Assembly: GCF_008017545.1 (NCBI RefSeq)
Contig: NZ_VRTZ01000001.1
Coordinates: 1,019,741-1,083,740 of the forward strand
DNA: 64,000 bases
Origin: Homoserinibacter sp. GY 40078
GTDB taxonomy: Bacteria; Actinomycetota; Actinomycetes; Actinomycetales; Microbacteriaceae
Reading direction: 5' to 3'
Part shown: piece after piece, positions 4,919-11,385 of the stretch
Position numbering within the stretch: the first letter of the stretch is position 1
Layout of the letters: each line of letters starts with the position of its first letter
Program-made: the position numbers and the translations under genes
Notes under the pieces: generated by a model
Databases searched by the model: none
Told to the model about the DNA's origin: nothing
Seen by the model: only the letters and a program-made list of their open reading frames with translations

Positions 4919-6037
<1,119 letters not shown>

Positions 6038-6042
6038 CCAGG

Positions 6043-6615
6043 TCAGTGGAACTTCTCGCCGCGTTCCAGCATCCGGGCGAATTCCGCGGATCGACGCACG
6101 CGGGTCTCGGGGCGCACCGCCTGCTGGATGCGGAAGATGAAGGCCCAGCGGTTCTGGGCGTTGAGCGCGGCGAACGCCTCCGCCGCCGCGGGACTCGCGT
6201 CGAGCTCCGCCTGTAGCTCGGGCGGAACGGGGGCGCCCTTCTGCCGGTAGGCGGCATCCCACCGACCGTCGGCTTTCGCGCGCTCGATCTCGGCGTGGCC
6301 GCCGGGTCGCATCCGGCCCTCGTCGATGAGGCGAGCGACGTGATCGCGGTTGATCTGCGACCACGGGCTCCGCGACCGGCGCGGGGTGTACGCCTGCAGG
6401 GTGAACTCGTCGTCGAATCCGCCGGCCTGTCCGTCGATCCACCCGAAGCACAGCGCCACGTCGAGCGCCTCCTGCCGCGTGAGACCGGGCGTCTGGGCGC
6501 CCTTCTTGAGGATCTTCAGTCGTACGCCGTCGTGGGGCGGGTCGTTCTCGAGGAACTGCTCCCACTGCTCGACCGAGGTGAAGTGCAGGATCGGCTTCTC
6601 GGCGAACGACGACAT
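6043..6615 (-). CDS. YdeI/OmpD-associated family protein
   Basis: 190-residue cytoplasmic protein of the YdeI family (bacteriocin-protection/OmpD-associated type). Seen: LTRQEALDVALCFGWIDGQ, then the characteristic YTPRRSRSPWSQINRDHVARLI segment, and a C-terminal AQNRWAFIFRIQQAVRPETR region. Molecular function is not established for this family. Start MSSFAEKP at 6615; upstream in-frame sequence runs into the hairpin at 6630-6658. Convergent with mdh, whose stop is only 8 bases away. A terminator-like hairpin separates it from hsp20, so it is probably expressed separately. Confidence 0.8.
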   Translation of the reverse strand: MSSFAEKPILHFTSVEQWEQFLENDPPHDGVRLKILKKGAQTPGLTRQEALDVALCFGWIDGQAGGFDDEFTLQAYTPRRSRSPWSQINRDHVARLIDEGRMRPGGHAEIERAKADGRWDAAYRQKGAPVPPELQAELDASPAAAEAFAALNAQNRWAFIFRIQQAVRPETRVRRSAEFARMLERGEKFH

Positions 6616-6629
6616 GCCGCATACGATAC

Positions 6630-6658
6630 GGGCCCCGGACGACATCCGTCCGGGGCCC
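6630..6658 (-). terminator. GC-rich hairpin after hsp20
   Basis: Perfect 12-bp stem, GGGCCCCGGACG (6630-6641) pairing with 6647-6658, with a 5-base loop. It lies between the hsp20 stop and the YdeI-like start. No T-run follows on the leftward strand, as is common for actinobacterial terminators. It may alternatively act as a 3' stabiliser. Confidence 0.6.
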
Positions 6659-6677
6659 GTCTCAGCGACGCGAGCGA

Positions 6678-7115
6678 CTACACCGCGTCGGCGTTCGCCT
6701 CGACCTCGCGCGCAGCGTCGGAGGTCTGCACCTCGATCTTGCGCGGCTTGGCCTTCTCGCTCACCGGGATCACGACGCTCAGCACGCCGTTCTCGTAGCT
6801 CGCCGAGATGCCGGCAGTGTCGATGCCCTGGCCGAGGTTGAGCTGGCGCAGGAACGAACCGCCGGAGCGCTCGCGCGCGATCCACTTCACGCCCTCCACG
6901 CCGCGCGGGGTGCGCTCGGCGCGGATCGTGAGCAGCTGGCCGTCCACGTCGATGTCGACGCTGCCGGGGTCGATGCCGGGTAGGTCGGCGTTCAGCACGT
7001 AGTGGTCGCCGTCGCGGTAGAGGTCCATCGGCATCAGCCGGGGGCCCTGGCGGCTGTCGAGGAGCTGGCCGGCCACGCGGTCGAGCTCGCGGAACGGATC
7101 GAAGAACATGGTCAT
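6678..7115 (-). CDS. Small heat-shock protein, Hsp20/alpha-crystallin family
   Basis: 145-residue ATP-independent holdase chaperone. Seen: N-terminal MTMFFDPFRELDRVAGQL, the alpha-crystallin core beginning at PMDLYRDGDHYVLNADLPG, strand VDIDVDGQLLTIRAERT, loop ERSGGSFLRQLNLG, and the closing ASYENGVLSVVIPVSE motif (A-x-x-x-n-G-v-L), followed by KAKPRKIEV. Start ATG at 7115 is supported by a strong AGGAGG 7 bases upstream. HAIR-like and CIRCE-like repressor sites lie directly upstream, so heat induction through HspR and HrcA is likely. Confidence 0.95.
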   Translation of the reverse strand: MTMFFDPFRELDRVAGQLLDSRQGPRLMPMDLYRDGDHYVLNADLPGIDPGSVDIDVDGQLLTIRAERTPRGVEGVKWIARERSGGSFLRQLNLGQGIDTAGISASYENGVLSVVIPVSEKAKPRKIEVQTSDAAREVEANADAV

Positions 7116-7133
7116 GTGGGTTCCTCCTCAAGA

Positions 7134-7154
7134 TATGAGTCTTGACGACTCAAC
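7134..7154. promoter_or_regulatory. HAIR-like element (HspR operator)
   Basis: On the leftward strand GTTGAGT-N7-ACTCATA, compared with the HAIR consensus CTTGAGT-N7-ACTCAAG: 6 of 7 in one arm and 5 of 7 in the other, with exact 7-base spacing. It lies about 20 bases upstream of the hsp20 start, next to the ribosome site. The position is right for repression by HspR. Confidence 0.7.
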
Positions 7155-7170
7155 TTTCCTGAGATCAGTT

Positions 7171-7197
7171 TTAGCACTCTGTATATGCGAGTGCCAG
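7171..7197. promoter_or_regulatory. CIRCE-like element (HrcA operator)
   Basis: TTAGCACTC-N9-GAGTGCCAG: the left arm matches the CIRCE consensus exactly, the right arm has two mismatches near its outer end (GAGTGCTAA expected), and the 9-base spacing is exact. It sits 17 bases upstream of the HAIR-like site in the hsp20 promoter. Confidence 0.8.
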
Positions 7198-7247: not shown

Positions 7248-8753
7248 TCAGTACCCGAGGAACACGTCGGTGCGGATCCGTCGCGCACCCGCCCGCCGCA
7301 GCGAACGACGCAGGCGGGAGACGTCGGTCGGAGCCCCCGAGATCAGCACGGTGCGCTCGGCGGCGTCGGGCATGGCGTGCAGCACCGTCTCGGCGTCGAG
7401 GGGCGCGGGGCCCGCCCAGCTCCAGTTCGCGGGAAGCTCGCCCGGGTCATCCGGCGCGAGCACCACGACCCGCACTCCGGTCGCGGCGAGCTCCTCGCGG
7501 TACGCGAGGTCGGAGCCGCTGCGCACGGAGTAAAGCAGTTCGGCATTCCCTGCGCGTCCGGCTTCGGCGAGCGCGGTGAGTTGCGCCACGAAGGGCGTCA
7601 CGCCGATGCCTGCGGCGACGAATCCGAGCTTCTCCCGCGGGTCGCGGGGCAGCAGGAAGTCGCCCCACACACCGGTCGCGCGGATGCGGGCGCCGATCGG
7701 CAGTTCGAGCAGGGCCCGTTTGAAGCTCGACGGCTCGTTGCGGATCCGCACGCCGATCGTGAGTTCGTCGGAACCCGGTGTGGAGGTGATCGAGAACACG
7801 CGCCGGATGCCGCCCGCATCCGGGCGACGGTGCGGCACGGTGAGCTCGAGGTACTGCCCGGGTGCGAAGCGCGCCGTGGAGGACGTGCGGAATCGGAACT
7901 CCCACGCCGTCGGGGTGAGTGAGCGCCGCGCCACGAGTTCGAGGGGCATCCCGCGGCGCTGGCCGAACGCGAAGGCGACGACGCCGGCCACGACGAGCCC
8001 GAGCTCGGGGGAGTTCGAGATCGGGCCGAGCACGAACGGCACGGTCATCACGAGCGCGGCCACCACGGCGACGACGATCCGCTGCCATCGCCGCGGGGGG
8101 AGGGTGAGGGGCTCGCTCAGCATGAAGCCCGCCGCGAAGACGTAGGGGCTCGACGCGAACGCGATGGAGACCGCGGTGTCGGCAGGCGCGCCGCCGACGA
8201 CCAGCCGTCCGATCGTGATCGCCGCGGCGAGCACGATGAATGTGAGGCCCATCTCGAGTCGACGGGTGCGCCAGAGCACGAGCGCCGCCGCGATCGCGAC
8301 GACCGGGAGGAGGGGGCCGGTGCCGACCCACCAGGACGGGAAGGCGAGCCCGGTCGTGCCCACCACGAGGGCTCCGATGGCCGCGGGGTTGGCGACGTGC
8401 CGTCCCCGCCAGGCGATGAGGTACTTCGAGGCCGCGGCGGCTGCCGCAGCGGCGGCGAGCCCGAGAAGCCCGTCCAGCGTGAGCGTCGGCTGCAACACGA
8501 ACGCCAGCAGCAGCGCGGTGATGACGCTCGACGAGGTGTGAGCTCGGCTGCGGAAGATCCGCGCGAGCACCTCGCCCGCGATCCAACTCGTCACGAGCAG
8601 CACCGCGGCGCTCGCGAGAAGGGCGAGAGGGTCCACCGCGAGCAATCCCGCGATCGACATCCCGAGCGCCACGAAGCCGATCACCCCGAGACACACGATC
8701 ACCGTGAGGTACATCGTCAGGCGCCCGAGCATCCGATCCAACCGTGCGATCAT
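7248..8753 (-). CDS. NqrB/RnfD-like membrane domain fused to FNR-type flavin reductase
   Basis: 501-residue redox protein in two parts. Residues 1-265 hold about eight to ten membrane helices resembling NqrB/RnfD, including FMLSEPLTLPP near 210-220, where those families carry the (S/D)-x-x-T flavin-attachment region. Residues 270-501 form a ferredoxin-NADP-reductase-like domain: FAPGQYLEL near 296, RRVFSITS near 317 (the RxYS-type FAD motif with F for Y) and GIGVTPF near 382 (the nicotinamide loop). Inference: cytosolic NAD(P)H reduces FAD and electrons cross the membrane to the flavinylated lipoprotein encoded upstream. Start ATG at 8753 overlaps the apbE stop by ATGA. The longer upstream frame is antisense-like noise within apbE. 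Confidence 0.85.
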   Translation of the reverse strand: MIARLDRMLGRLTMYLTVIVCLGVIGFVALGMSIAGLLAVDPLALLASAAVLLVTSWIAGEVLARIFRSRAHTSSSVITALLLAFVLQPTLTLDGLLGLAAAAAAAAASKYLIAWRGRHVANPAAIGALVVGTTGLAFPSWWVGTGPLLPVVAIAAALVLWRTRRLEMGLTFIVLAAAITIGRLVVGGAPADTAVSIAFASSPYVFAAGFMLSEPLTLPPRRWQRIVVAVVAALVMTVPFVLGPISNSPELGLVVAGVVAFAFGQRRGMPLELVARRSLTPTAWEFRFRTSSTARFAPGQYLELTVPHRRPDAGGIRRVFSITSTPGSDELTIGVRIRNEPSSFKRALLELPIGARIRATGVWGDFLLPRDPREKLGFVAAGIGVTPFVAQLTALAEAGRAGNAELLYSVRSGSDLAYREELAATGVRVVVLAPDDPGELPANWSWAGPAPLDAETVLHAMPDAAERTVLISGAPTDVSRLRRSLRRAGARRIRTDVFLGY

Positions 8754-9610
8754 GCGAAAACCTCTCCCGGGAAGTCGGCCGAACGCTCGATCCGGCCGTT
8801 GTCGAGCATCCTCGCCCACCGCACACCGCGGCGCGAGAGCCAGGCGGGGTCGACGTCGAAGAACAGTGCTGTCGCCGCGCCATCGGCGACGAGGTCGGTG
8901 TCGGCGATCGCCCAGGTGGCGCGGATCCGCCTCGTCGGAAGTCCGGTCAGGGCGTCGAGCACGTGGTGCAGTCCATCGCCCCACGCGCGGCGGTTGCTCG
9001 CGCTCGCCGAGAGCGCCCCGTCGGTGAGCTCGGCGATCCCCACGGCCTTCGCCGCGTCTGCCGGATGCTCCAGGGCGATCCGCATCGGGACGTCGCGGAT
9101 GCGCAGGTCGCCGGATCCGTCGACGACGTGCCGGTCGACGCCCTCCTCGTCGAGCAGCCCGCTCACCAGATCGACGAGGAGGCCCTTGCCGGCCCCGCCG
9201 ACATCGAGCAGGAGAGGGGCGACGGTGTCGAGATGCTCGCCGTCCCAGGCGAGGGCGTCTTCCCATCGCGGGACCGCGGTCACCGCCCCCGCGAGCCGCG
9301 GACCGTATCCGAGACCCGCGAGTGCGGAGCCGACGAGGGGTGAGACCCGCCCAGCGGTCGCCGCGTACAGCTCGCCGTACAGGTCGAGCAGCTCGCCCGC
9401 CTCGTCCGGCAGCCGATGGTGTCCGGGGGTCCGGGCGATCCGCGCCACGAGCGAGTCCTCGCGGAAGCGGGACCAGTCGGCGTCGAACCGGGCGATGCGG
9501 GTGGCGATCCGCTCACGCAGCTCGGGCGAGAGCGGCTCGGGGGTGTCGATGCGCCAGGGCGTCCCGAGCGCGTCGAACCGCCACGCGGCGGGGAGCGGGT
9601 CGGTGATCAG
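8750..9610 (-). CDS. apbE: FAD:protein FMN transferase (ApbE)
   Basis: Attaches FMN to Thr/Ser of target proteins using FAD and Mg2+. Seen: DVGGAGKGLLVDLV (the D-x-G-x-x-x-K-G FAD loop), VDGSGDLRIRD, ALSASASNRRAWGDG and the H-x-h-x-x-x-T-G segment HHVLDALTGLP. Typical N-terminal coding (WRFDALGTPWRIDTPEPLS) continues well upstream of the first GTG at 9448. The only plausible in-frame start is CTG at 9610, which overlaps the stop of the FMN-binding lipoprotein as CTGA. Exact start uncertain. The gene lacks an obvious signal peptide with this start, which is unusual, since many ApbE proteins are exported. The lipoprotein directly upstream is the obvious substrate. Confidence 0.85.
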   Translation of the reverse strand: MITDPLPAAWRFDALGTPWRIDTPEPLSPELRERIATRIARFDADWSRFREDSLVARIARTPGHHRLPDEAGELLDLYGELYAATAGRVSPLVGSALAGLGYGPRLAGAVTAVPRWEDALAWDGEHLDTVAPLLLDVGGAGKGLLVDLVSGLLDEEGVDRHVVDGSGDLRIRDVPMRIALEHPADAAKAVGIAELTDGALSASASNRRAWGDGLHHVLDALTGLPTRRIRATWAIADTDLVADGAATALFFDVDPAWLSRRGVRWARMLDNGRIERSADFPGEVFA

Positions 9611-10095
9611 GACTCGAGCGCCTCGGCCTTGATGGCGTCCACCGCAGCCATGAACCCGGTGCTCGTGAGCGAGGATCCGGCGACGCGCGTGACGTTGAGG
9701 GAGTCGATGTCCTGTCCGACGACCTCCGCCGCGATGCCGGAGGCGAACTGCTCCTGGAATCCGGCGGCCTGCTGGTCGGTCGCGGTGGGGGTCACGGTGA
9801 CCTCGGTGACCACATCGTCGACGAGCGTCAGCTCGACGTCGATCTCCTCCTGGCCACTCGGCGCGGTGTAGCTTCCGCTCGCCGAGTAGGTGCCGTCGGT
9901 GTACGAGGCGCTCGTGTCGCTGGAGCTGCTGGAGCTACCGGAGCTGCTCGATCCGCTCGAGGTGCTCGAGGTGTCGTCGGAGGTCGTCGCCGTAGCGGCG
10001 CAGCCGGCCAGGGCGAGGATCCCGAGGCCGGTGGCGCCGAGGGCGCCGAACCGGGCGAGAGCGTGGGTCCGAGTGCGGGGCGTCTGAAGCGTCAT
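9607..10095 (-). CDS. FMN-binding domain lipoprotein
   Basis: 162-residue exported lipoprotein. Seen: signal peptide with lipobox LALAGC (lipidated Cys32), a Ser-rich linker at about 40-63, then an FMN_bind domain beginning at YTDGTYSASGSYTAPSG. The acceptor region GSSLTSTGF at about 140-148 corresponds to the S-G-A-T-x-T motif flavinylated by ApbE; Thr146 is the likely acceptor, Thr144 the alternative. Start ATG at 10095 gives a proper signal peptide; the longer frame to 10164 does not. First gene of a three-gene leftward operon with apbE and the NqrB/RnfD-FNR fusion. Inferred role: membrane-anchored one- or two-electron carrier on the outside of the cytoplasmic membrane. Confidence 0.9.
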   Translation of the reverse strand: MTLQTPRTRTHALARFGALGATGLGILALAGCAATATTSDDTSSTSSGSSSSGSSSSSSDTSASYTDGTYSASGSYTAPSGQEEIDVELTLVDDVVTEVTVTPTATDQQAAGFQEQFASGIAAEVVGQDIDSLNVTRVAGSSLTSTGFMAAVDAIKAEALES

Positions 10096-10172
10096 GTCGC
10101 TCAGGATCGCAGCGGATCCTTGGCCGGTGCTGACAGTTCGCCGGGGGCCGGCACTGCGGGCCATTGGTTACG

Positions 10173-10229
10173 GGTTTGTAAACCGTCCGTTCAAACCTTG
10201 TCTGCCGTTAGTTCGTACGCTTTACTAAC
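10173..10229. promoter_or_regulatory. Candidate ROK-regulator operators in divergent promoter
   Basis: Two dyads lie between the FMN-lipoprotein gene and the ROK regulator gene. The first is GGTTTGTAAACC (10173-10184). The second is GTTAGT (10207-10212) with ACTAAC (10224-10229), ending 4 bases before the regulator ATG. The short T-rich/A-rich arms resemble operators of NagC/XylR-type ROK proteins. Autoregulation is likely if they are real. Confidence 0.45.
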
Positions 10230-10233
10230 AAAC

Positions 10234-11385
10234 ATGGTCGCCCCCGACGCGCAACGCAGCGCACCTCCTCGTGCCTTCCGGCCGAGCGGCAAGGTCCTCC
10301 CCGAGCACGCGCGCGGCCACAACCGCTCGCTCGTCTTGCAGACCCTCTATCGCGGCGGGCTCGCGAGCCGCGCCGACCTCGCGCGAGAGACGGGCCTCAC
10401 GCGCGTGACCATCTCCGACCTCGTCGCCGAACTCATGAACGACGACCTCGTCATCGAGACGGGCCAGCGTGGGGAATCCCGGCCGGGCAAGCCGGCGATC
10501 CTGCTCGACATCAACCGCACCGGATTCCAGATCGTCGGCGTCGACCTCTCCGAGACCGGCGTCTTCCGCGGCGCCGTGCTCGACCTCGACGGTACTGTCG
10601 TGACCCGCCTCGAGGTGGAGACCGGGGGTGCGTCCGGCGCCGAAGTCACCCGGATCGCCACGCGCCTCACCCTCGAGCTCGTCGCCGCCGCCGACCGACC
10701 GCTCCTCGGTGTCGGCATCGGTTCTCCCGGTGTCGTCGGCATCGACGGCACCGTGCTCTCGGCACCCAACCTCGGGTGGGAGGGGGAGCCGCTCCAGGCG
10801 ACCATCGCCCAGGCGACGGGGCTCGGTGTCGTCGTCGCCAACGACGCGAACGCCGCCGCCCTCGCCGAGCGCAGCTTCGGCGACGCGCAGGGCGACCTCA
10901 TGCTCATCCGGGTCGGCCGCGGTGTCGGTGCGGGCCTCATCGTGGGCGGAACGCTGCTGCACGGCAGCCGCTTCGCCGCGGGCGAGATCGGCCACGTCGT
11001 GGTCGGCACCGACGGCGGCGCGCTGTGCGCGTGCGGCAAGCACGGATGCCTCGAGACCTGGCTCGCCGTGCCGCACCTGCGCGACGGACTCGCCCAGGCC
11101 GCATCCGCATCCGAGCGGGATGCCGTGCTGCACCGCGCCGGGGAACGCCTCGGCATCGCCCTCGCCCCCGTGGTGGGCGCCCTCAACCTCGACGAGGTCG
11201 TGATCAGCGGCCCCGTCGAACTCCTCGACGGCCCGCTTCTCGGGGCGGCCATCGAGACCTTCCGCACCCGCACGATGCCCGAGTTCCATGGGGCGCTCGC
11301 GGTGCGGATGTCGGCTCTCGGCCAGGACATCGTCATGCGCGGCGCGGCCGCCATGGTGCTGGCCGGGAGACTCGGCGTCTCCTGA
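10234..11385 (+). CDS. ROK-family transcriptional regulator (NagC/XylR type)
   Basis: 383-residue repressor-type protein. Seen: N-terminal winged helix with LYRGGLASRADLARETGLTR then VTISDLVAELMNDDLV (residues about 33-75), followed by a ROK sugar-binding domain with VGVGIGSPGVV, NDANAAALAERSFG and the zinc motif GEIGHVVVGTDGGALCACGKHGCLE. ATG at 10234 is chosen; the longer frame begins in the opposite promoter. It precedes the amino-sugar transport and catabolism operon, so it probably senses GlcNAc, GlcNAc-6-P or a related sugar. The gene is 67 bases from the solute-binding protein gene and may be co-transcribed with it. Confidence 0.9.
   Translation: MVAPDAQRSAPPRAFRPSGKVLPEHARGHNRSLVLQTLYRGGLASRADLARETGLTRVTISDLVAELMNDDLVIETGQRGESRPGKPAILLDINRTGFQIVGVDLSETGVFRGAVLDLDGTVVTRLEVETGGASGAEVTRIATRLTLELVAAADRPLLGVGIGSPGVVGIDGTVLSAPNLGWEGEPLQATIAQATGLGVVVANDANAAALAERSFGDAQGDLMLIRVGRGVGAGLIVGGTLLHGSRFAAGEIGHVVVGTDGGALCACGKHGCLETWLAVPHLRDGLAQAASASERDAVLHRAGERLGIALAPVVGALNLDEVVISGPVELLDGPLLGAAIETFRTRTMPEFHGALAVRMSALGQDIVMRGAAAMVLAGRLGVS

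Follow-up and report, generated by a model that had tools for sequence, protein, structure and literature searches.

A two-subunit ‘NQR/RNF-like system’ with the same membrane-reductase fusion as the locus studied here was described in 2021 (Meheust et al., 2021; PMC8238504), and an NQR/RNF-like system was modelled in 2024 (Huang et al., 2024; PMC10979944). Such systems come mainly from Actinobacteria and candidate phyla (PMC10979944 and PMC8238504), the published count stands at 127 clusters, and the NqrB/RnfD flavinylation site is reported to have been lost in the class (Huang et al., 2024, PMC10979944). We found no experimental study of the class in the literature. The motif at which ApbE attaches FMN to its targets is D-x-x-[S/T]-G-A-[S/T] (PMC12052999), and seven residues are sufficient for flavinylation. 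Extracytosolic ApbEs require exported FAD, which in Listeria is provided via EetB, and cytosolic ApbEs acting on cytosolic targets are also known.

Here we describe a three-gene module in a 64,000-nucleotide stretch of the genome of Homoserinibacter sp. GY 40078 (the window). Judged from sequence, the module is real, well conserved and a member of a class that has already been described; what is new is an invariant G-S-S site in the lipoprotein, a leaderless ApbE throughout and the frequency of the module within Microbacteriaceae.

Results

Organization of the locus

The module occupies positions 10095 to 7248 of the minus strand, where the first-pass annotation had placed three coupled genes, and all three are present there, co-directional and with each pair overlapping by 4 bases (Table 1). 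The lipoprotein stop codon TGA (9609-9607) and the apbE start codon CTG (9610-9608) have CTGA in common, while the apbE stop codon TGA (8752-8750) and the fusion start codon ATG (8753-8751) have ATGA in common. The clustering with ApbE and/or an exported FMN_bind protein that marks NQR/RNF-like systems was found at this locus. Its neighbors in the window encode Hsp20, an OmdA-domain protein, malate dehydrogenase and a divergent ROK regulator with a sugar ABC transporter, and no partner gene hinting at an acceptor was found near the window. The spacer toward the divergent ROK regulator gene (10160-10235) contains an inverted sequence resembling TTAGTTCGTACGCTTTACTAAC, with words that are found again in near relatives; this is probably a ROK operator and not part of the flavin module.

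Table 1. Coordinates of the three genes and their features in the window.
Feature	Position	Strand	Details
Gene 1, P0003, FMN-binding-fold lipoprotein, 162 aa	9607..10095	-	Lipobox Cys32, Ser/Thr-rich linker, FMN_bind-type domain ~65-162
Putative flavinylation site V138-A-G-S-S-L-T-S145 in P0003	9661..9684	-	From homologue alignment and canonical motif (PMC12052999)
Gene 2, P0002, ApbE (FAD:protein FMN transferase), 286 aa	8750..9610	-	Apparent CTG start, no signal peptide
Gene 3, P0001, NqrB/RnfD-like membrane domain and FNR-type NAD(P)H:flavin reductase, 501 aa	7248..8753	-	
P0001 NqrB/RnfD-like membrane domain, about residues 1-267	7950..8753	-	Lacks the RnfD flavinylated-Thr segment
P0001 FAD/NAD(P)H reductase domain, about residues 268-501	7248..7949	-	RRVFSIT FAD motif, GIGVTPF nucleotide motif

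The fusion protein

Both halves of the fusion proved to be what the first-pass annotation had called them, an NqrB/RnfD-like membrane part and a C-terminal FNR-type reductase. PF00175 matches P0001 at 25.9 bits against a cut-off of 22, 37 of 41 family members match it as well, and the AlphaFold2 model of the fusion (mean pLDDT 90.4) has exclusively FNR-type structures as its top Foldseek matches. Because the FNR domain dominates a search with the full-length protein, the membrane domain was tested by its own profile. Taken singly, P0001 has no PF03116 match and its membrane half has no Pfam match, and this half was identified via a family profile built from homologues, which finds Azotobacter RnfD (8ahx_D) at an E-value of 2.4e-7. 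PF03116 itself matches 29 of 56 fusion family members (best 1.7e-12), hhalign of the membrane family against E. coli RsxD gives an E-value of 4e-6, and the NCBIfam rnfD/rsxD/nqrB models also support the assignment. A conserved N-P (122-123) and E-P-x-T (214-217) align with the matching features of RnfD. The membrane identity is therefore borne out at the level of the family, this part of the single protein being invisible to Pfam.

Alignments to RsxD and RnfD leave RsxD residues ~142-222 without a counterpart in the fusion. This extracytoplasmic stretch includes GISQATPLD, the type of site that bears covalent FMN in RnfD/NqrB. With the covalent-FMN site of NqrB/RnfD not conserved in the fusion, any membrane flavin that it holds must be non-covalent. 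The membrane domain also has no conserved Cys, a single near-invariant His and no conserved His pairs, indicating that it contains neither a heme pair nor an Fe-S ligand set, and P0001 has no match to PF01794, the domain looked for as a mark of MsrQ-like systems.

The lipoprotein and its putative flavinylation site

The lipobox of P0003 reads ALAGC, and its low-complexity linker leads into a folded domain that AlphaFold2 models with pLDDT >90 from about residue 65. Compared with the PDB by Foldseek, the model matches 3o6u (probability 0.97), SaFMN3 (0.90) and RnfG (0.80) with E-values of only 0.03-0.07, modest fold statistics for an FMN_bind identity. The Pfam FMN_bind model scores 16.4 bits on P0003, under its cut-off of 22 bits, and matches 28 of 41 P0003 homologues. 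A profile of the lipoprotein gave no direct match to E. coli RsxG, and its sequence gave none to the FMN_bind entries of the PDB, so the identification rests on fold comparison together with Pfam.

The canonical flavinylation site implied by the first-pass annotation is not there: P0003 has AGSS, not SGAT, and the stretch equivalent to the ApbE motif, T-R-V-A-G-S-S, differs from it at three positions. Ser142 aligns with the FMN-bearing Thr/Ser of the canonical motif, and the residues G140, S141, S142, L143 and T144 (G-S-S-L-T) are invariant in all 41 of the 41 lipoprotein homologues. Uhrbacterial lipoproteins have D-T-V-S-G-S-S and D-V-V-S-G-S-S. Since these keep the D and the S, the sole constant departure from the canonical motif is Ala to Ser immediately before the acceptor. 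Published substitutions in one tested protein found the motif Asp largely dispensable, with substantial flavinylation left after D-to-A, and Ala-to-Val halved flavinylation but still left it substantial; another paper calls the Asp essential, and Thr-to-Ser at the acceptor lowers flavinylation with known ApbEs. We think that Ser142 would be the residue to which ApbE attaches FMN, and a scan of the fusion protein for another candidate flavinylation motif found none.

ApbE and its start codon

The apbE product matches PF02424 at 110.6 bits and aligns with solved ApbEs, in keeping with its first identification, and Lys142, His215, His216 and Asp243 are invariant, the catalytic His and the FAD/Mg residues being in place. 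Its frame has no ATG, GTG or TTG upstream of 9448, and a start at the GTG at 9448, as expected from automatic gene callers, would remove the first conserved ApbE strand. In orthologues of the same genus the alignment begins at the CTG codon (9610-9608), where they have GTG or CTG, and apbE appears to start at this codon, within the CTGA overlap. A CTG start in a CTGA overlap also occurs in L037, L044, L049 and L065; in L051, apbE has no usual start codon at all. A programmed frameshift producing a lipoprotein-ApbE fusion was considered and rejected, as the relative frames vary between loci and in-frame stops part the genes in several of them. The first-pass annotation had missed both the non-standard start codon and the absence of a signal peptide from ApbE.

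Distribution and subtypes

The genome survey of the fusion proposed in the first-pass annotation shows that it is widespread, with full-length copies in about 79 of 200 sampled Microbacteriaceae genomes and in only about 8 of 397 genomes sampled across the phylum. Named relatives with the fusion are Microbacterium, Arthrobacter, Aeromicrobium and Nocardioides, Ktedonobacteria (Dictyobacter, Ktedonospora) and Anaerolineaceae, candidate-phyla genomes (Uhrbacteria, Amesbacteria, Nomurabacteria and Adlerbacteria) and a Mesorhizobium plasmid. One genome, G097, has two full-length fusion copies (C2:402906 and C3:312399). About 70 further loci were compared, and nearly all have the trio intact, so its arrangement is not a matter of chance. 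The order lipoprotein-apbE-fusion is near-universal; apart from clusters at contig edges, the exceptions are L071, L048, where the lipoprotein gene is found some 2.4 kb farther upstream, and L086, where no adjacent partner of the fusion was recognised. At L071 (about 5252-7174, genome G016), the lipoprotein adjoins the fusion with no apbE between them, and an apbE lies elsewhere in the genome.

Two types of cluster can be told apart by the partners of the fusion. Type A (Actinobacteria, Uhrbacteria) has a lipoprotein or anchored protein with G-S-S-L-[ST] and a long ApbE. In type B, found in Chloroflexi, Mesorhizobium and the other candidate phyla, the ApbE is short and the site is the canonical [ST]GAT. 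A FastTree phylogeny groups the type-B fusions in a single clade (support 0.99), so that partner type follows the descent of the fusion. In an all-against-all comparison of 41 loci, the conserved neighbors were the trio itself and housekeeping synteny (for example, isocitrate dehydrogenase), and no acceptor gene emerged.

Comparison with related systems

With the published NQR/RNF-like systems the module shares its three genes, the NqrB/RnfD-like domain fused to a PF00175 reductase, the FMN_bind partner, the loss of the NqrB/RnfD flavinylation site and Actinobacteria as one of the main hosts; it differs in having GSS in place of GA[S/T]. The window proteins also go undetected by Pfam, and the cluster count in the literature is probably an underestimate as a result. 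From RNF and Na+-NQR (RnfD/NqrB, RnfG/NqrC, NqrF), with which it has in common a homologous membrane domain, an FMN_bind partner and an FNR-type NAD(P)H domain, the module is set apart by the lack of a 2Fe-2S domain and of the covalent-FMN segment of RnfD. No further Rnf/Nqr subunits (RnfA/E or NqrD/E, PF02508, or a separate NqrB/RnfD) were found in the window’s genome. MsrQ-like systems likewise combine a one-polypeptide transmembrane reductase with an FMN protein and ApbE, but their membrane domain is heme-based and unrelated to that of the fusion. The window’s genome has such a locus at about 46.4-49.6 kb of G000:C1 (L001), encoding an MsrQ-like ferric-reductase/FNR protein, an FMN_bind protein with GGATYTS and a leaderless ApbE. 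The first-pass annotation had taken the module for a new minimal self-contained version, which does not hold, since the same two-subunit fusion had been published in 2021 and 2024 and MsrQ-like systems are equally compact. Like the module, the FmnB/PplA pair of Listeria involves an ApbE-loaded FMN lipoprotein in a Gram-positive organism; FmnB, however, is an exported protein that depends on the EetB/FmnA FAD exporter, whereas the ApbE here is leaderless and EetB is absent.

Proposed mechanism and alternatives

The module is very likely a type-A member of the published NQR/RNF-like flavinylation systems, exporting electrons from NAD(P)H via the FMN-lipoprotein to an extracytosolic acceptor. A hydride from NAD(P)H would be taken up by FAD in the cytosolic FNR domain of the fusion, electrons would cross the membrane through a flavin bound non-covalently in the NqrB/RnfD-like domain, and they would then pass to the FMN attached by ApbE to Ser142 of the lipoprotein and on to the extracytosolic acceptor, with ferric iron, or else some other small oxidant, as the likeliest candidate. 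We infer from sequence the covalent FMN on Ser142, the non-covalent membrane flavin, the direction of the electrons and the acceptor. The path from NAD(P)H through FAD and the membrane domain to the exported FMN protein and the gene assignments behind it, as first annotated, remain the best reading and agree with published proposals; the novelty and the canonical flavinylation site are the parts of that annotation that fell away. The module is probably one-directional, and ion pumping is unlikely because the Rnf/Nqr subunits of the return path are missing, a point also made in the 2021 survey (Meheust et al., 2021, PMC8238504). With only one flavin in the membrane, the distance to both neighboring cofactors may be too long for fast tunnelling.

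Ferric iron is our best guess for the terminal acceptor because VIT-family genes adjoin some clusters, and six published clusters also carry VIT1 according to the 2021 survey (Meheust et al., 2021, PMC8238504). On plasmid NZ_CP083955.1 of Mesorhizobium sp. B2-1-1 (L155, 3081-7512), a type-B trio lies beside VIT-family, cytochrome b/b6-domain and PepSY-domain genes, which we regard as a lead pointing to iron as the acceptor. A search for a DtxR/IdeR iron box upstream of the module in the window gave as many mismatches as shuffled sequence.

It is improbable that the lipoprotein is not covalently flavinylated at all, its AGSS domain being degenerate and ApbE having another substrate, or the fusion reducing free extracellular flavin or another carrier. 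Such a reading would accord with the sub-threshold FMN_bind score of P0003 and with the replacement of the D, the S/T and the Ala of the motif, but an invariant G-S-S-L-T that recurs in Uhrbacteria as D-x-V-S-G-S-S is unlike a degenerate site, and the tolerance of the tested protein to D-to-A and A-to-V, together with the lack of any other candidate motif in the fusion, argues for the site in P0003. Moreover, nearly all clusters have apbE in the middle of the trio, and 13 of the 16 genomes checked encode no ApbE besides that of the operon. Less probable still is an inward flow of electrons or a heme system of the MsrQ-like type. Sequence does not reveal direction, and an MsrQ-like locus does exist elsewhere in the window’s genome; yet the membrane homology is to NqrB/RnfD, the domain has no conserved pair of heme-ligand His residues, and NAD(P)H oxidation is the usual reaction of FNR domains like that of the fusion.

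A leaderless ApbE with an exported target

The lipoprotein target is exported, and a signal peptide is absent from every readable ApbE of the clusters. In-frame stops occur no more than 16 residues ahead of the first conserved ApbE strand in L035, L036, L052, L053, L054 and L063. The N-terminal hydropathy peak of cluster ApbEs is 0.05-1.35, compared with 1.99 for E. coli Ftp, and the lipoproteins mostly lie near 2. Type-B ApbEs start with M-K-x-T-x-x-x-M-G-M-P. Both ApbEs of the window’s genome are leaderless, and the EetB family, the known FAD-exporter subunit, is absent from that genome.

The simplest reading of these sequences is that FMN is loaded in the cytosol, before Sec export of the lipoprotein, as the leaderless ApbE suggests. 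An engineered flavinylation target was not flavinylated once folded, which is in line with a precursor being loaded while unfolded. Export of a folded holo-lipoprotein by Tat was considered and set aside: a twin arginine near the N-terminus occurs in only 6 of 40 homologues and not in P0003, and with such signals rare, export would be via Sec with FMN attached. Preproteins carrying bulky conjugates reportedly pass through SecYEG (Bonardi et al., 2011), while other work estimates a narrow SecYEG pore. We tentatively propose that this may extend to the whole class, and perhaps to many Actinobacteria: a leaderless ApbE would flavinylate the cytosolic preprotein and Sec would export the holo-form, with no need for a FAD exporter, the Actinobacterial motif having shifted to x-x-[VL]-[ASG]-G-S-S.

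The alternative to the pre-export part of this proposal is that flavinylation takes place outside, with ApbE exported without a leader or with its true start further upstream and preceded by an unseen signal. Characterised ApbEs with exported targets are themselves exported, and we found no cytosolic ApbE with an exported target in the literature searched. We nevertheless consider external loading unlikely, given how little room in-frame stops leave ahead of the first conserved strand at several loci, the lack of a strongly hydrophobic stretch in ApbE or of a signal in either ApbE of the window’s genome, and the absence there of EetB as a marker of FAD export. Genes without a signal peptide or lipidation site were discarded before counting in the 2021 survey (Meheust et al., 2021, PMC8238504), and the leaderless-ApbE pattern may thus have been filtered from its view.

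Discussion

Published counts based on Pfam greatly understate how common the NQR/RNF-like class is in Microbacteriaceae. Of greater interest is that the compartments do not match: in all clusters read, a leaderless ApbE goes together with an exported FMN protein. If cytosolic loading before Sec export is true, the covalent flavoproteins of this class would be loaded before they leave the cytosol, against the standard picture of an extracytosolic ApbE. Its confirmation would explain how extracytosolic covalent flavoproteins arise in cells without a FAD exporter; it would also imply that part of flavinylation is overlooked by surveys that drop signal-less ApbEs.
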